DNA of 64,000 nucleotides from Chlorops oryzae (taxonomy: Eukaryota > Arthropoda > Insecta > Diptera > Chloropidae). The notes beneath the pieces were generated by a model, which had not been told where the DNA came from, did not search any database, and saw only the letters and a program-made list of their open reading frames with translations. The stretch is taken from positions 79,746,994 to 79,810,993 of the forward strand of contig CM035808.1 of NCBI GenBank assembly GCA_020466095.1, in the 5' to 3' direction. This document shows positions 13,771 through 62,060 of the stretch, piece by piece; positions within the stretch are counted from its first letter, which is position 1, and each line of letters starts with the position of its first letter. The position numbers were made by a program, and so were the translations under genes.

Positions 13771-14400
13771 CAGCGAATAGAAGCGACCCTATAGAAATTC
13801 GGCATGAGTGTCGAGATATAATATTGTCGGAAGCACCGACGCCGCTAATGGCGGCACACACTGAAGTTGAAGGCAGTCGAAGTTTCCGAAGCACTTTCTC
13901 GGAAATAAATGTTCCTTCGGAACCTGAATCCAAAAGCGCCCTAGCATAAAGGACCTTGTCTTCATAGCCCAGTCTCACCATCGCCGTACCCAGCAACACG
14001 CTTGTCATCCCCGCCGCCAAACACGACTGCACTGCAGCGTTTTCGTTTTCTGTATTGGGGCCTACTTGAGCTGACAGCAATTGTTGCTGAGCCACAGCGC
14101 GAGTGGACGGTCCATCGGACGTTGGATTTTTTTGATTGGATACATCCCGATGTAAAAGCGTATGATGAGGCTTGTGACAAGTAAAACAACTATATTTGAT
14201 TTTGCAGTCTTTGACCGAATGAGCGCGAGCGAAACAATTAATGCATAAACCGAATTTTTTTATGCTTGCTAAACGATTGTCCACTTTCATGTTTAAAAAT
14301 TTTGGACACGAGCGAATTGGATGATGCTCTTTCGGACAAAGCTTGCACGCGGGAGTCGTTACGTTCACAGAGTGCGATCTGAGACTCTTTGGACGCGACG
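13763..14400 (-). pseudogene. BEL B Gag knuckles and protease active site
   Basis: After the Transib insertion the frame shows CKLCPKEHHPIRSC, CINCFARAH and CFTCHKPHHTLLH (zinc knuckles), then ARALLDSGSEGTFIS, a normal DSG protease active site. It is interrupted at 14400 by the Transib element and by a frameshift at its 3' end. Confidence 0.88.
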
Positions 14401-14439
14401 CACAGTGTGCCGACTCCATACATTGCTTGGCCAAAAATA
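14401..14439 (+). repeat. Transib 1 transposase-3' end terminus, 23-bp-spacer RSS-like signal
   Basis: Heptamer CACAGTG (14401-14407), a 23-bp spacer, then CCAAAAATA (14431-14439). The same arrangement is found at the end of the second copy (28994-29032, minus). Confidence 0.88.
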
Positions 14440-15204
14440 GAAGGAGTTGTCGTAGAGCAATGAAATTTGGCATGGAGGTTTATTTTTATAAAATTAAGAA
14501 ATTTTTAAAAAATTGTAAAAATCCGACCACCCCAACCCCCACCCCCCATGTAAAGGGGGGACCCAAATTCCGCAATTTTAGTCCTACAGACTTGAAATTT
14601 GGAGCAGAGCTTAAATTCCTGCTCTAAAATTGGAAAAATTTAACTTGGGTGGGCTGCCACGCCCACTTTTTGTGCTACGCCTACTCAAAGTTGGGAGATA
14701 CAGGGGCAATGAACCCCCTGCAAATCGTATAAAACTTTTATAAAAATTGATGAATTTCAATTTAATTGTAAAATTCAAACATGTTTTCAATAGAAAAATT
14801 TAAAAAGACCAGCCCAGCCTTGCCAAAGAAAAAAAAGCGAGGTGGAAAAAACAGTGAATTTCAATGTATAAATCCCATATATTTGATACTGACGCTTACG
14901 TTATTCTTGAATTGTAGAGCTTTTTTATTTGATAAATTTCAAAGGAATAACTCACAATTAAATTTCTTTGCGTTTTTAACGTTCATATAAGGTGTAGTAA
15001 AAAGATATATAGCTTATTAAGCCATATAAAACTTGTAGTTATAATGCAAATATCATCTAAATTAAAGAACAAAGTATTATTTGAAAGGTAATTAAGTTGA
15101 GTTTATTCCATTGGTTTTTTTTAAGAGATATTAAATTTTTACTTATGCTTTTTTAAGTGCAGCTATGTATACATATACATTTTTATTTAAATTTATTCTA
15201 AGAT

Positions 15205-15885
15205 TTAATCATCTGAAGAGCTGCAGTTAGAATCTTCCGATAAAAAGTCTTCCAAATCTATTTCTAAAGAAGAATCCGAATCCGTTTCATCGTTTTGTTC
15301 TACCAAAATATATGCTTTAATTTCTTCATTGGAGATCTTTCCTTTTTGCTTCAATTTTCTATATTTTGAAATAAGTGGCTCCGAAGACAACAGTAAATTT
15401 AAAACGTCTCTGTTAGCTGCCTCTCTGGAACATTTACGGGCTTTTTGCAATCTAGGATATCTGAATTCCTTATGCCGAGCCTCTAGTGCATCTTCCGACA
15501 GCATACCGATTGGGAGGAGAAAATGCTTTATAATGTCAATGCCATGACACAGAACTTTATGCACTTTAACTGGCATATAGTACCAGTCATACAGTGTGAT
15601 ATACAAACTATATGTATTGTTTAGCAAAATACTAAATGTTTTAATATTTATAGCTGCACCACATGACAACACTTTTAAAATTGAAGCGAAATTTTTTATT
15701 AAATTAATATCAATATCTGTAATTTTGGAAGAAATTTCAGCGTTATTGAAAAAATTTCTTGCTGTATTTCCGTCATTTGAGGTTCCATATCCTGTTCTGA
15801 CTTTATCCACAATCAAGCCCAACTCAGATCTGAATAGACTACAAATTTTACTCTTTTTGCGTTTTGTTTTTATACCATATTCTGC
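15205..15885 (-). pseudogene. Transib transposase, C-terminal fragment
   Basis: The frame is open from about 15885 and ends at 15205. It contains GLIVDKVRTGYGTSNDGNTAR, a YDWYYMPVKVHKVL block and LPIGMLSEDALEARHKEFR, which I recognise as the conserved C-terminal part of Transib transposases, a RAG1-related DDE family. The usual third catalytic acidic residue probably lies in this part, but I cannot confirm which Glu. An acidic, Ser-rich tail follows. Upstream catalytic Asp motifs are absent, so it cannot act alone. Confidence 0.8.
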
Positions 15886-16926
15886 TATAGTTTATATATT
15901 GCTAAATACTTAATTATATTTAGTGTTGACAACCACCTTAAATTATAACTAATAATGTTAAATAAGTTAAACTTCAACATTTTAGCCGTTGTGTTTGAAT
16001 ATACGCTTTCGAACTGTGTTCAATTGTTGGTAATTAGTGCATTTCCGCCTGTATTTTGGACCTTTACGAAAACTTGTATAACTCCGAAATCGCAACGAAT
16101 TTTAATATAATTTTTTTTTTATTTTTAGAAGATATCATAGGCAATAAAATATCAAAAATTTGAGGAGGTCATTTTTTTTTAAATTTTTAAAAAATCTTTT
16201 GAAATTTGCATAGTTTTTGCATTTTTCCCAATATTTTTACCTATTTCACATGCATATTTTTACATTGTTCAATAGAAACATTAACAAAAACAATATAAAT
16301 TATTAAATTTTAGGGTTTTTTCTTTCATACAATATATATTTTGTATAAACTTATTTGCAAAATTTCCTGGTATTTGTTTGTATGTGCAATTAATAATTTT
16401 ATAACCTAATTTTAGTGCTCCATAACATGGAACATAAATCCGAAATCGCAACAAATTTGTTAAATTTTAACTTTTTTTTATGATAAGCGCCTATTACTTA
16501 ATAACATATAAAAAAATTAGAGAGGTCATATTTCGCATAATTTTTTTTTTCAATTTTGAAATTCTGTGAAATGTTCAATTTTTCAGTATTTCACATATTT
16601 TTTTAACAGTAATAATATTTTGTATATAATAATAATTTATATACACGAATACTTTTTTATGATTGTAAATAAGCTACACTTTAATTTGATATATGATACT
16701 TGGGTATTTATAGTTGTATACTTACTCTTTATTCGATTTGAACCCGCGCATATGCAATAATTGTGCAAAACAACAAAAGTTCACATTTTGCATAAGACAA
16801 CTTCAAAGGCGTGTTGTGATCGCAAAACTAAAGCTATCGGCAAGAAAATTTGGGAGTTTCTAATTCAATGTATTCTCTAAGAAGCCATAAAAAAAAATTA
16901 TTCAAAATCTGCACTTTTATTTTTAC

Positions 16927-16954
16927 TATTTTTGGCCGCACTCGGCACACTGTG
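16927..16954 (-). repeat. Transib 1 transposase-5' end terminus, 12-bp-spacer RSS-like signal
   Basis: Read on the minus strand: CACAGTG, 12 bp (TGCCGAGTGCGG), CCAAAAATA. The spacer is 11 bp shorter than at the opposite end. Confidence 0.88.
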
Positions 16955-16959
16955 CGACG

Positions 16960-27604: not shown

Positions 27605-29032
27605 CACAGTGTCGCGAGCGCGGCCAAAAATGCCAAAAATGAAGATTGGAAATGCTTAAAAATTTTTACTGTTATGAGTAGTCAATATTTATACTAAGAG
27701 TAATCAAAAAAAATTTTCTTAATATGTTAAGCCGTTTAAGCGCAGCACGCTTTTAAAGTTACACTAAGCGAAATTTGTTCGATTCTGTTAGCAAAACTTT
27801 TAAAAATAGCTAATATTTGGAGTGCTATAATTTTGTTGAAAGTAGTCTCGCCTTAATTATTTATATGCCAAATTATAACATAAGCTTTATGCTTTAAGTG
27901 ACATTTAATTTATTGTTTATATTTGTAACATATGTTATTTTCCGTTACATTAAAATAAGGAATTTATAAAAAGAAGCGATAAAAAGCAAAATAAATTTTT
28001 AAAATTAAAAATAAAAAAAACGACCCCTCAAACCGCAAAGTGTTTTTTTGTTTTATATACCTCGAAGTGATATAAGCATAAGTATGTAATATGATCGGCT
28101 TTTTCCTGCGGGTTTTTTTGTTATGTCGATTTTATTATAGTGATCTCCGTTGCTAGAAGGGAACTCTATAGTGTGTGACTCTCTTCTAAAGACAGAAAAT
28201 GGGGAGCAAACCAAAACGATATGATAAGTTTTGTTAAACAAACTTATTTTGCTGATTTAGATGAAGAAGATTTGAAAACAAAATTAAGCTGGTTTGGATC
28301 CAAAATTCAAAAAAAGTGGCATCAAAGCGGTAGGAGGAAAACTGCATTCGAAGAAACCAATGCGAATTGGTTAAATTCCTCCATCGATTTTAAAATTAGT
28401 GAGGCAGTAAGTACAGGAGTTTTTAATATTAGCTTTAAAATTAATCTCATCAAAAAAAATGTCCATGCCAAATTTCAAGAAGAATTAACACTCAAACATT
28501 TAATAATTTTGGAACAGCAGTGATTATTGAATGAGCGTACGGGCGAAAGCGGTACAATTGTTTCGTTGAATTTTCATGCATTTTCACTGCATTGCAATTA
28601 TCGTAAGTCGTCGTGTAGACCTAAAATTTTTTTGAACTGTGATAAATATATATTTTAAGTGTTGAAATCCATAAAAAGTTTCTTTATTTTTTAATTAGCT
28701 ACAAAAAATTCTATATAAACAAGTGCACCATAAAAGTGCGCACTTTGAAGGGGCGTAGTTTCTTAAGGGGGCGTGGCACCAAAAAAAATATTTTGGGGTC
28801 TACATTTTTTTCCTGTACATAATCTGTGTACTAAGTTTAAGCTTTCTAACTTTAAAACTGTGGAAATTAGAAAATCACTTTATATGGGAGGTGGGCGTGG
28901 CAGTTGGCGAAATTCTATGATTTTCTCAAAATTTCTTAATTTAGGCTATAGTAATACTCCAACCAAATTTCATTGCTCTACGACCACGCCTTCTATTTTT
29001 GGCCAAGAAATGTATGGAGTCGCGACACTGTG
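27605..29032 (+). mobile_element. Transib element 2 (1428 bp), inserted in LINE endonuclease
   Basis: Same termini as element 1: at 27605 CACAGTG, 12 bp, CCAAAAATG; at 29032 reading inward CACAGTG, 23 bp, CCAAAAATA. The flanking 5-bp TSD is again CGACG (27600-27604 and 29033-29037). Its transposase-5' end is on the left, so coding would be on the plus strand. It keeps a possible N-terminal transposase piece (28221-28523) and has lost the core and C-terminus. Confidence 0.9.
28221..28523 (+). pseudogene. Probable Transib transposase N-terminal fragment
   Basis: A 100-aa frame in the correct orientation for the element. It reads KKWHQSGRRKTAFEETNANWL, which resembles the W-x4-R-x4-F-x6-WL region near the start of Transib transposases; this match is from memory. 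The frame ends where an internal deletion probably removed the rest. Confidence 0.5.
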
Positions 29033-42131: not shown

Positions 42132-43474
42132 TCAAGAAAAGAAGTATGAAAACAAACCTTTGGTTTTATTATAATATTTAATTATTATCGGCAGATTTTT
42201 TCCAAAAGAGTCTACATCATTAGAATGATGCATTGTGCTTTGCAGTATTACGCAATTGTCCTTTCTACCAATGTATGATACGAGTGTAGTATTTTCGGTG
42301 AATGCAAATGTTGATTGGAACAGCGGAACTCGTTTGCATTTTAAAAGTTTTGGTGGGATACTTCTTTTGTTCTTGCGCATTGTTCCAACCATTGTTAGCC
42401 CTCGGAACAACAACTTTTGGCCAAGTTCGTATGATGAGAAGAAGTTGTCCATTGTTATATTATGGCCTTTTAAGCCATGAACCAAATCCAAGACTACTCG
42501 CTCTCCTTGATTTTTTTCAGCTATGCCACCAACTGGCTTACCTAAATACGGCTGGATCTTCCAAACGTAGCAAGTTTCAGAGCAAACTAATAGCGAAAAT
42601 TTAATTCCGTATCGTGCAGGCTTAGACGGCATATATTGTCTGAACTTGCACCTACCACGAAATGCAAGCAATTGTTCGTCAACAGTAAGACATTCAGATG
42701 GGTTGAAATAATCATCCAGTAGCTCAGACCATTTGTCAAATACTTCACGAATCGGTGAAAATTTATCGTTAGAAATTCTCAATCGTCTGCTCATAACGTC
42801 ATCGAAACGAATAACGCGATTCATGTATTGAAATGTTTTCTTTGGCATTATCGCTCTAAATATAGGACGTCCATATTCACCATCGAACAGATCCAACATT
42901 GTTTCATTCCTGGATCTTAATTATGGCTATTATAACTAAGACTCATTTCAAACACAAAAAATATACCTGTAAACTCCAGCCAAAATGAGAACACCGATAT
43001 ATGCACGTAACAAGCTCGAGTCGATTTCAATATAGTTGTCGCCGCATTTGGCCTTCGCATATGCGTTTGACCATTTGAGAATGGTATTCTCAACAGGTGG
43101 TGGAAAAAATAGCATAAAGGCATCTTTAGTATCATCGATACGCGCTCTTGCATATCTTGTTGTGCCTGGACGCAAATTGATGACATTTTCACTTCGTAAT
43201 CTTCCAGTACGATCTTGGATTGGTTGAGAGCTCCATACCGTATTGTCTTTTGAGACAAACAATGGATCAACAGATTATCTACGGATGAGATTCCGATTGC
43301 AGCGACATCTTCACTTTCTTCCATACTATTACACTCAGAATTTGCTTCGCTTTCTTCAGAATCATAATTTTTTTCTGGCACGTAATCTTCATCGCTGTCA
43401 GAAAAGTCTTCGTCATCAGAAGCATTCAAAAGATATTCCAGTTCTTCGCTGGATAGATATTTTGGTCTAGTCAT
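42132..43474 (-). pseudogene. piggyBac-type transposase with an intron, frameshifted
   Basis: The acidic N-terminus (from ATG 43472-43474) is followed by a frame change near 43262-43290, then SKDNTVWSSQPI and AGVY. A GT-AG segment of about 50 bp (near 42913-42966) separates this from RNETMLDLFDGEYGRPIF, and splicing it restores a typical reading. The last part has LTVDEQLLAFRGRCKF, the Asp-containing TVDE motif, KPARYGIK and ITMDNFFSS, hallmarks of piggyBac DDD transposases. The end is truncated relative to full-length proteins (no Cys-rich C-terminus seen). TTAA termini were not located. Confidence 0.88.
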
Positions 43475-46329: not shown

Positions 46330-47154
46330 TTAGATTTTTTTTTTATAGGCAAAAAATGTTTCAATTTGCGTTGTTTTCCACACAAGGGTGATTTGAAGGT
46401 TAAGGAAATTATCAAAATTCGTGGAAAATGATGTTATCATCTTTGCACTGCTTTCCAAAATAAATGCGAAATTGGCATGGTACTTACAAACGCACATATT
46501 GTGTGGTGTCTTGCATGATAGTTGCACGTATTTTGGTCTCAATTCATAAAATGCGGACTTACTGACGTAGTCCATATTTCTCTCCCTTTTGTATAACTCA
46601 TACGACTCAGAAACGGTAAGCAACATAAAGCGCTTGGACATTACTTTCTCATCGACGATTAGTGTATCCTTCCGACCTGCCGCTTGGATACTAATATCAT
46701 TTTGCAAGTAGAACTCCTTAACAATTTGCCTTTTTTGATCCATTGCTGAGTCAGACTGTTGTTGCGAAGATGCTGGACCATATGTGCCATATTTTTCATG
46801 GAGGATGTCAATGATGTGTGTTTTTTTTTCTGGGTCGACCGGCAAAGCTTTTTCGACCTTTTTCAATGCCTTTTCTAATGTTTGCTTGCACTTGTAAGGC
46901 TGATTGACTGGCGGATTGTTTTTTTTTTCACCTTCACTCTTCTTTTTCATACGAAATTGTTTTTGCCTTTTACGGTTTTGTTCTTTAACTTTCTCAATGT
47001 CTTTCGATTTCAACAACTTGCGTCTATATTTCGCAGCTCGTTCTCTTGCCCTTTCACGGCTTATTTCCAACCTAAGTGAATCCGATTTCAATTTTTCCCT
47101 GTAGCGCTTCGAGTAATTCTTCCTTTCAGTCAAAGATTCCATCTGCATATACAT
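46330..47154 (-). pseudogene. Orphan transposase-like family, N-terminal half (copy 1)
   Basis: Residues about 10-90 are a highly basic, coiled-coil-like region (repeated Arg/Lys/Glu, RERARERAAKYRRKLLKS). Then follow KALKKVEKALPVDPEKK, KEFYLQNDISIQAAGRKDT, SKRFMLLTVSESYELYK and CKTPHNMCVCKYHANFAFIL. The same series of blocks, in the same order, occurs in the protein at 60412-62060, so they are one family. I do not recognise an established name. This copy stops after the CVCKYHAN block where the catalytic half should begin. Confidence 0.6.
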
Positions 47155-47537: not shown

Positions 47538-48830
47538 ACAGGTTGGCTGATAAGTCCCCGGTCTGACACATAGATGGCGTCGCTAGTATTAAATGCATAT
47601 TATTTTTATATAGTGGCAAACTTCAAATGATTCGTGTCAAAATTTGACGTCTGTAAGTCAATTAGTTTGTGAGATAGAGCGTCTTTTGTGAAGCAACTTT
47701 TGTTATTGTGAAAAAATGGAAAAAAAAGGAATTTCGTGTTTTGATAAAATACTGTTTTCTGAAGGGAAAAAATACAGTGGAAGCAAAAACTTGGCTTGAT
47801 AATGAGTTTCCGGACTCTGCCCCAGCAAAATCAACAATAATTGATTGGTATGCAAAATTCAAGCGTGGTGAAATGAGCACGGAGGACGGTGAACGCAGTG
47901 GACGCCCGAAAGAGGTGGTTACCGACGAAAACATCAAAAAAATTCACAAAATGATTTTGAATGACCGTAAAATGAAGTATATCGAGATAGCAGAGGCCTT
48001 AAAGATATCAAAGGAACGTGTTGGTCATATCATTCATCAATATTTGGATATGAAACAGCTCTGTGCAAAATGGGTGCCGCGCGAGCTCACATTTGACCAA
48101 AAACAACAACGTGTTGATGATTCTGAGCGGTGTTTGCAGCTGTTAACTCGCAATACACCCGAGTTTTTGCGTCGATATGTGACAATGGATGAAACATGGC
48201 TCTATCACTACACTCCTGAGTCCAATCGACAGTCGGCTGAGTGGACAGCGATCGGTGAACCGTCTCCGAAGCGTGGAAAGACTCAAAAGTCCGCTGGCAA
48301 AGTAATGGCCTCTGTTTTTTGGGATGGGCATGGAATAATTTTTATCGATTATCTTGAGAAGGGAAAAACCATCAACAGTGACTATTATATGTCGTTATTG
48401 GAGCGTTTGAAGGTCGAAATCGCGGCAAAACGGCCCCATATGAAGAAGAAAAAAGTGTTGTTCCACCAAGACAACGCACCGTGCCACAAGTCATTGAGAA
48501 CGATGGCAAAAATTCATGAATTAGGCTTCGAATTGCTTCCCCACCCACCGTATTCTCCAGATCTGGCCCCCAGCGACTTTTTCTTGTTCTCAGACCTCAA
48601 AAGGATGCTCGCAGGGAAAAAAATTGGCTGCAATGAAGAGGTGATCGCCGAAACTGAGGCCTATTTTGAGGCAAAACCGAAGGAGTACTACCAAAATGGT
48701 ATCAAAAAATTGGAAGGTCGTTATAATCGTTGTATCGCTCTTGAAGGGAACTATGTTGAATAATAAAAACGAATTTTGACAAAAAAATGTGTTTTTCTTT
48801 GTTAGACCGGGGACTTATCAGCCAACCTGT
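47538..48830 (+). mobile_element. mariner, irritans subfamily (Himar1-like), 1293 bp
   Basis: TIRs begin ACAGGTTGGCTGATAAGTCC at both ends (31-bp range, one difference) and sit between TA dinucleotides (47536-47537 and 48831-48832). Length and TIR match Himar1-type mariners. The transposase frame is nearly complete, so the copy is young. Confidence 0.95.
47716..48763 (+). pseudogene. Himar1-like mariner transposase, one-base insertion after ATG
   Basis: A cut-and-paste DDD transposase. The frame open from 47708 to TAA 48761-48763 has the helix-turn-helix region, a WVPREL linker (WVPHEL in many mariners) and the catalytic D residues in VTMDETW (48188), FHQDNAPCHKS (48470) and APSDFFLF (48575), the D34D spacing. 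The expected ATG at 47716 is followed by eight A where seven would keep frame, so translation from it enters another frame and stops soon. Without slippage or a non-ATG start the protein is not made. Everything else looks functional. Confidence 0.92.
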
Positions 48831-60411: not shown

Positions 60412-62060
60412 TTAATATGTTTTATTTAATAATGTATAATAATAATGAGATATTAAAGTTTTTTTTTTAATGAATAAGGCCGTTCGTCCTGTGCTGAGCT
60501 CAAAATTCTCATCGCACAAAATTGAATGTATCATTCGGATACCAGGAACATTCGGAACATTACTCCATTTGTTCATTAAATTCGCGGATATCTGAGCAAT
60601 TTTGTCGATTCCAACGTAAAAAAACCTTAATTCCACTAATGTGACAGTGGGCACAGTTATAAAATGAAAGTGCATCATTTAAAACAATATTGCTTGTCTT
60701 CGTTAGCTGAAAAACTTTTCTTTTTACAGCCGCTCCAACACCATCGACAGCCCCTTTACCATGCGATGTGGCAAAAACATTCCACTCAAGCACTTCACAT
60801 TTGAATTCCGCCATTAAATCGGGCAAGCTCCAAAACATGAATTTGTTTTTGAATTGGCAACTGCTTCCGTCCGAAAAAAAGCAAAATTTTATGAAAGTTT
60901 CCATGTTTTTGTTTAACATCTTCGACAATCATAGTTAGAAAGACGTAGACATCGGCTTTGCTATGACTTAAGCTATCGCTTATAACGGCAACTGATATAG
61001 ATTTTTGGTGCATCCATACAACGCAAGTAAAAATTGAAGCTTGGTTATAGCTAAAATGTACGCTTTGCACTTCGTTTTGGCAAACCAGCCTATAATTTTC
61101 GGCGAAGTCATTTTGAAGGACAAGTTCTCCGGGCTTGATATTTTTCCTCATATCGGCAAAATAATTTTGCTGGTGCCGCTTTACAAAGAAGTGTGTCTTA
61201 AAAGTTGGTAGTTGAACTTCCAAATCATACAGTATGTCTGAAAACGGTGCTACGGAATTATTTAAAGTTATTCTATCATTGACCTTCCTCCAGTGTTGCC
61301 ATTGCACAATTTCATCCATTTTCGACAGAAATTTAATTGATACAATTGATTCAATACCTTTTGTGCAGTTTTCGCAATCGTTGGTCATACAGCTTTCATT
61401 CTTAACATCACAGCAAGTTAATTTCAAAAAGCATTCAAAGGTATTGGGAAAAGATTTGATAATTGTTGCGCAACCTTTTAACCAAAAATTTAAATTGGCG
61501 TGATGAATACACACACACATGTTATGCGGTATTTTGGACGAAAGCTCAACGTATTTGTGTCGACATTCAAGAAATTTTGCCTTGCCTACGAACTCTTCAA
61601 CTAATTCGCTTTTGTAAAGTTCATAAGCTTTCGATACGGTTATTAACATAAATCGTTTAGCAACGATGTTCCCATCAACATTGAGGGTATCCTTTTTGGC
61701 CGCCGACTGAACGCTTGTATCTTCCCGCAAGTAAAAATCTTTGGCCAGCTGCAACTTGCCCTCTGATCCTGAGTCAACTGTTGCACAATTCGCGTTTTTG
61801 TCAATTGTTGGTTCAACATACTTTTGAAATAGTGCCGTAATAACCTCGATTTTTTTATTCAAATCGTTCGGCAATGCCCTTTCGGCCTTTTTAATAGCTT
61901 TTCCACGAGTTTGTTTAAATTTATACGCTTTATGACTTTCTTTTTGTACAGCTTCAATTTTCTTCCTTTCTCGGTATTCCCTCAAACGTACCTGTTCTTT
62001 TTCTTGAATGTTTTTAAGCATCGTTTTATTTGTTGCTAGTGCTGACCGTCGTTTTCTCAT
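60412..62060 (-). pseudogene. Orphan transposase-like family, nearly full length (copy 2)
   Basis: The first frame (62060 to about 60880) starts with a basic region, then KKAERALPNDLNKK, KDFYLREDTSVQSAAKKDT, KRFMLITVSKAYELYK and PHNMCVCIHHANLNF, the same blocks as at 46330-47154. The second half, absent from copy 1, has LVLQNDFAENYRLVCQNEVQ, HFSYNQASIFTCVVW, ISDSLSHSKADVYVF, and, after a one-base shift near 60880, FSDGSSCQFKNKF and ATSHGKGAVDGVGAAVKR. A further shift near 60575 leads into NVPNVPGIRMIHSIL. NDF, SDS and SDG motifs are good candidates for DDE-type catalytic residues; this is inference. The family is widespread in invertebrates as uncharacterised proteins, to my recollection. Confidence 0.65.

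Follow-up and report, generated by a model that had tools for sequence, protein, structure and literature searches.

Was the 12/23 rule of V(D)J joining inherited from a transposon, or did it arise with RAG2 in vertebrates? The question is raised by an insertion in the fly Chlorops oryzae, found in a window of 64,000 nucleotides (assembly GCA_020466095.1, contig CM035808.1, positions 79,746,994 to 79,810,993 of the forward strand), which is the whole stretch of DNA analysed. A first-pass annotation had described it as a Transib element whose ends resemble a pair of V(D)J recombination signal sequences (RSS), with the heptamer CACAGTG separated by 23 bp at one end and 12 bp at the other from an A-rich block, CCAAAAATA, in the position of the nonamer. 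On recounting, these ends and the flanking CGACG target site duplication (TSD) proved exact. The features of this insertion, element 1, are as follows.

14401..16954, minus strand: Transib element 1, with an internal deletion, length 2554 bp (ends, TSD and transposase fragment on the minus strand)
14396..14400, no strand: left copy of the TSD CGACG; the empty site restores the open frame of the host element
16955..16959, no strand: right copy of the TSD CGACG; the empty site restores the open frame of the host element
14401..14407, plus strand: heptamer CACAGTG of the 3′ (23-spacer) end, read directly
14408..14430, plus strand: 23-bp spacer of the 3′ end, counted directly
14431..14439, plus strand: nonamer-position block CCAAAAATA of the 3′ end, read directly
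16948..16954, minus strand: heptamer CACAGTG of the 5′ (12-spacer) end, read directly
16936..16947, minus strand: 12-bp spacer of the 5′ end, counted directly
16927..16935, minus strand: nonamer-position block CCAAAAATA of the 5′ end, read directly
16918..16926, minus strand: second A-rich block of the 12-end, GTAAAAATA, directly inward of the first, at spacer 21
15205..15891, minus strand: C-terminal part of a Transib transposase, 228 aa and stop, with the catalytic Glu region (E 2.7e-42 to 6pqn)

Two Transib insertions in the window

The minus-strand frame at 15208–15891 (228 aa) matches HzTransib with an E value of 2.7e-42, which identifies element 1 as an internally deleted Transib with its 12-end on the 5′ side of the transposase gene and bears out the family assignment made earlier. 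When the element is removed and 62 bases from each flank are joined, the ORFs on either side are linked through an uninterrupted frame, and element 1 is therefore a true insertion. Its host element carries DUF1759 (Pfam) and is presumably BEL-type. Inward of the 13-bp inverted repeat, a block of 12 bases is common to both ends, a length reached by none of 4000 dinucleotide shuffles; their resemblance is beyond chance. Copies of the same length, L043 and L046, are 98.5% and 98.2% identical to it. Element 1 represents a cut-and-paste Transib transposon in non-autonomous form, with part of its interior lost.

A second Transib element lies further along the window, with these features.

27605..29032, plus strand: Transib element 2, 1428 bp, TSD CGACG, 12-end on the left and 23-end on the right
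27612..27623, plus strand: 12-bp spacer, followed by CCAAAAATG at 27624–27632, which is repeated at 27633–27641
29003..29025, minus strand: 23-bp spacer, followed by CCAAAAATA at 28994–29002
28221..28406, plus strand: exon-1-like ORF, 62 aa, ending at GTAAGT

The 62-aa ORF is similar in length and place to the 60-aa exon 1 of a longer copy, L034, and GTAAGT ends both; Pfam gave no match to it, and the PDB none that is significant. The longest block common to both ends of element 2 is 10 bases, a length reached by 62 of 4000 dinucleotide shuffles. The element sits between a reverse-transcriptase ORF and a PRE_C2HC ORF, in a LINE which we take to be jockey-like.

Other transposon remains in the window include an open mariner-type transposase frame of 351 aa (47708–48763, Pfam Transposase_1) and a transposase fragment at 42132–42899 that matches Pfam DDE_Tnp_1_7 and is presumably piggyBac-type. 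Two frames, at 46330–47154 (274 aa) and 60795–62060 (421 aa), look related to each other and are without a Pfam match.

Spacing of the ends across the genome

The pattern CACAGTG-N12-CCAAAAATA has 122 exact matches in the 442-Mb genome, while the reversed-pattern control has none. A sample of 42 loci was assembled from the first 40 of 100 listed 12-end matches and the two window elements, and the element side of each was fetched. Mates were called from an exact heptamer and a TSD with at most one mismatch, the mate spacer being left out of the criteria; since 40 of the 42 loci were picked by the exact 12-end motif, the anchor spacer is 12 by construction there. A TSD-matched mate was found in 23 of the 42 loci (19 have none), and a control with exact foreign TSDs gave 2 matches in 1128 trials. 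In 20 of the 23 mated loci the mate signal has a spacer of 23 bp, with the A-rich block exact in 15 and carrying one mismatch in 5; one of these 20 plain pairs, L013, has one TSD mismatch. The other three are individual cases. L032 offers two candidate mates and resolves into two nested elements, both 12/23, of which the inner one is 99.4% identical to element 2 and is inserted, with TSD CGACA, in the 3′ inverted repeat of another Transib. L019 has 12/22 spacing, and L029 is 12/12 with a perfect TSD CGGCA, its anchor being a shortened 3′-type end with a spacer 11 bp below the usual. Of the 19 loci without a mate, six (L009, L010, L012, L022, L026 and L048) share similar 12-end spacers, AGACG in front and no TSD mate within 6 kb, and may represent one amplified repeat that carries these ends.

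Each end is bipartite, with a 13-bp inverted repeat that starts with CACAGTG, then the spacer, then the A-rich block CCAAAAATA. At bases 8–13 of the repeat, the two ends agree in 16 of the 20 plain pairs, and between subfamilies these bases switch jointly at both ends (TGCCGA, TCGCGA, TCGTGT). The consensus TSD is CGNCG, 5 bp and GC-rich (27 elements with an exact TSD; L013 left out).

The 3′ ends were also collected without regard to spacer. Their inner block, GGCCAAAAATAGAAGGAGTTG, has 184 matches in the genome and none in the control; in the first 40 of 100 listed matches, 8 of which overlap stretches of the 12-end sample, the heptamer stands at exactly 23 bp in 38 (34 exact, 4 with one mismatch), while one of the remaining two has it at 22 (the L019 element) and the other has no heptamer. 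When six 3′ ends were extended by 2.1 kb, an exact-TSD mate appeared in five, two with spacer 12 and three with spacer 11. The latter belong to one subfamily with a degenerate nonamer block, ACAAAATAG, so a 5′ spacing of 12 holds in most subfamilies and not in all. The 11-bp 5′ end of this 11/23 subfamily has at least 41 exact copies, and of 21 such ends on contig C1, 17 point towards a 3′ anchor no more than 8 kb away. A 5′ spacer of 12 is also present in ends that were not selected for it, namely those of element 2, the nested element of L032, L091, L093, L096 and the pair L095/L097.

The first-pass annotation had named variable spacers, or an A-rich block that is not conserved, as what would refute it, and this outcome occurs in part. 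The two spacers are constant in 20 of the 23 mated loci and in the nested elements of L032, and differ in the 11/23 subfamily, one 12/22 and one 12/12 element. The A-rich block is kept, with at most one mismatch, in the 20 mates at 23 bp, and is degenerate in the 11/23 subfamily and at the 12-end of L095/L097.

On the part of C1 below 154 Mb, 20 inward-facing pairs of a 12-end and a 3′ anchor were counted against a mean of 0.16 under random shifts, with no inward 12/12 and no inward 3′/3′ pair; the count covers 53 listed 12-ends and 100 listed 3′ anchors as exact matches only, so that variant ends such as L029 escape it. Any element whose ends differ would show such pairing, and this count therefore supports the architecture and not a rule.

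Length is more constant within the signals than next to them. At 3′ ends, length differences per substitution amount to 0.024 in the signal vs. 0.20–0.29 in the 100 bp on its inner side; for the 5′ ends the values are 0.041 vs. 0.33–0.45, the former biased because these ends come mostly from loci picked by the exact 12-end. The comparison used 13 (5′) and 14 (3′) representatives selected at a level of 93% identity; it excludes L029, L032 and L094, and its inner windows include alignable pairs only (61–66 of 78 and 81–91 of 91). This constancy relative to substitutions, measured over pairs that are not independent, suggests selection on the 3′ spacing.

A further A-block, with at most two mismatches from CCAAAAAT, is found at spacer 20–21 in 28 of 31 distinct 12-ends; it is perfect at spacer 21 in 9 of the 31 and weak in some copies, e.g. 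CACAAATTC or CTTACAAAA. No such doublet was seen in the 23-ends inspected by eye.

Transposases and known relatives

In two longer copies, L034 (3343 bp) and L036 (5563 bp), transposase exon 2 runs from the 12-end towards the 23-end. Exon 2 of L034 has one in-frame TAG, whereas that of L036 is open, with an insertion of ~2.2 kb in exon 1; the L036 exon 2 (residues 91–541) matches HzTransib with an E value of 6e-99. The two D and the E of the catalytic site are at aligned positions, as read from alignments by eye. A genome search with the L036 transposase gave at least 83 matches with identities from 36% upwards, 74 of 1548 candidates being scored. Four of them were fetched. L095 and L097 share 36% identity with L036, are 99.77% identical to each other and have an open frame of 551 aa and exact TSDs; the block is CAAAAAATA at their 23-end and a degenerate CAGAAATTC at their 12-end. 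L096 shares 50% identity with L036 and has an open frame of 565 aa, TSD CGACA, and blocks CCAAAAAGG at 12 and CCAAAACTA at 23 (spacers of L095, L096 and L097 were counted by eye). For L098 only the 3′ end was found. Open transposase frames in nearly identical copies represent predicted coding capacity and are no proof of activity. In the copies whose gene was read, which span three transposase lineages, the 12-end lies upstream of the transposase, the 23-end downstream, and the TSDs are 5 bp of the type CGNCG; this gives the orientation that the first-pass annotation had left to be established.

Inside L034 no open stretch of at least 180 aa other than the transposase was found, and hence no RAG2-like gene is seen in L034. 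The transposase pieces have no significant Pfam match, and searches of viral contigs and of phage records gave no relative of the transposase fragment. Two AlphaFold models, with a mean pLDDT of 35 and 50, are of insufficient quality.

Four aligned N-termini (L036, L030, L096 and L095) have invariant GRP, SER, KR and K residues. The collinear place in RAG1 has GRPR and a basic stretch, although the sub-alignment score is negative and not significant. A profile search with the N-terminal region did not find RAG1 at E values up to 10; it recovered HzTransib only, through just the part behind the GRP motif. In the solved HzTransib chain, which may be a shortened construct, the aligned part begins after the GRP region present here, a comparison by chain and not by gene. 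GRP positions are reported for both Transib subgroups in the consulted parts of PMC9435367. The GRP-plus-basic motif resembles the RAG1 nonamer-binding domain by motif only, and offers a lead towards a possible nonamer-reading function.

Ends of this kind are already in print. In the sections of PMC8355894 seen here, Transib5 of Drosophila melanogaster and Transib2, TransibN1, N2 and N3 of Anopheles gambiae are described, after Kapitonov & Jurka 2005, as having 12/23 (±1 bp) ends with nonamers, and asymmetric ends in both Transib subgroups appear in the corresponding part of PMC9435367. The kind is therefore known, and the elements reported here are a further example of it. Those published elements, as described, share the heptamer, the A-rich nonamer and the 12/23 (±1 bp) spacers. 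The elements of this genome fall into several lineages and exceed 100 copies; their heptamer is the consensus CACAGTG, their 12-end has a second A-block, and one subfamily is 11/23, features that the published elements may also have. In the literature consulted in part on Transib and RAG-like ends, the A-block doublet, the 11/23 branch and a scale of more than 100 copies were not found.

HzTransib of Helicoverpa zea (6pqn and relatives) has a homologous transposase core (the E value of 6e-99 above), but its ends are described in the part of PMC8289069 consulted as symmetric with little nonamer similarity, in contrast to the asymmetric ends here. V(D)J 12RSS and 23RSS have in common with these ends the CACAGTG heptamer, the 12/23 spacers and a 5-bp GC-rich target duplication; the RSS nonamer ACAAAAACC (the consensus given in the same portion of PMC8289069) agrees with CCAAAAATA in 6 of 9 letters, with five A in register. 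V(D)J signals act with RAG1/RAG2, whereas here a transposon carries its own transposase in cis. The AanRAGL and amphioxus ProtoRAG elements have bipartite asymmetric ends with a 13-bp element and an inner element, as here; AanRAGL spacing is 4/13 (PMC9435367, as far as consulted) compared with 4/15 before GGCCAAAAATA here, and the amphioxus spacers are 27/31 (PMC8355894, likewise). Both carry RAG2-like genes, of which none was seen in L034.

Meaning of the asymmetric ends

The RSS-like ends and their 12/23 geometry, reported at first from one insertion, are found again in numerous copies and across three transposase lineages. A 12/23 pair is found in both window elements and in 20 of 23 mated loci, and its 23-spacer in 38 of 40 3′ ends, with 11/23, 12/22 and 12/12 as the exceptions, and Transib character is evident from a RAG1-core-like DDE transposase, the 5-bp GC-rich TSD and inverted ends beginning with CAC. 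In the explanation we favour, a transposase dimer would cut beside each heptamer and leave a hairpin on the flanking DNA, as for Transib and RAG (cut-and-paste with such a hairpin is described for Hztransib in the consulted portion of PMC6941560); the N-terminal GRP-plus-basic region would touch the A-rich block; and a difference of one helical turn in the position of the block between the ends would favour the joining of unlike ends. The asymmetry would then work like 12/23 architecture without RAG2, and we lean modestly towards this explanation taken as a whole, its putative steps included.

Constant spacing and unlike pairing alone prove no functional preference, since copies inherit both ends. 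The 11/23 subfamily, the 12/22 and 12/12 copies, the degenerate block at the 12-end of L095/L097 and the second A-block of most 12-ends also speak against it. The spacing could be a fossil of descent, from ancestral ends that differed by 11 bp, with a transposase that reads the 13-bp inverted repeat alone, a mode of recognition suggested for the RAG-like transposons of invertebrates from other groups. The identity of bases 8–13 at both ends and their joint change between subfamilies fit such reading, as does the tolerance seen in the 11/23 subfamily and in the degenerate 12-end of L095/L097; recognition of ~15 bp by invertebrate RAG-like enzymes relatively insensitive to end asymmetry is proposed in the available part of PMC7204232. 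Yet spacer letters diverge, with 33 different 12-mers among the 100 12-ends listed, while the 3′ length stays (38 of 40) although indels are common just inside the 3′ signal, and the A-rich block is the longest sequence common to both ends inside the inverted repeat. We regard descent alone as a somewhat unlikely account.

Improbable, in our judgement, is an arrangement of about two helical turns at both ends, in which the working block is the second A-block (20–21) at the 5′ end and the one at 23 at the 3′ end; the two ends would then be almost symmetric, with the block at 12 as an additional copy. The frequency of the second block would suit it, and symmetric Transib ends with 20–22 bp spacers are already published (PMC8355894, in the part consulted). 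But the first block matches better in most 12-ends, which were chosen for it, and is preceded by GG as in the 23-end; the second is weak in some copies, and L095 has no good A-block near spacer 21 by eye, where L096 has an A-run. A chance arrangement in a single copy has next to no probability and is ruled out by the 122 12-ends and 184 3′ inner blocks, against controls of 0.

A stronger form of the favoured explanation gives the asymmetry a function: a Transib transposase that acts without RAG2 and has a nonamer-binding region of the GRP type would enforce the pairing of one 12-type end with one 23-type end. The 12/23 rule would then predate both RAG2 and the immunity of vertebrates, and its tolerance would be visible in the 11/23 subfamily and the doubled A-block; judged from sequence comparisons, we advance this tentatively, as a possibility. 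A Transib seed with 12/23 ends is argued for in the consulted part of PMC8355894, and ProtoRAG ends are described as unlike 12/23 signals in that of PMC8289069. Because these elements occur in many copies and several lineages, with 99.77%-identical copies that have open frames and with natural spacer variants, the question of whether the rule was inherited from a transposon becomes testable with Transib-type enzymes.
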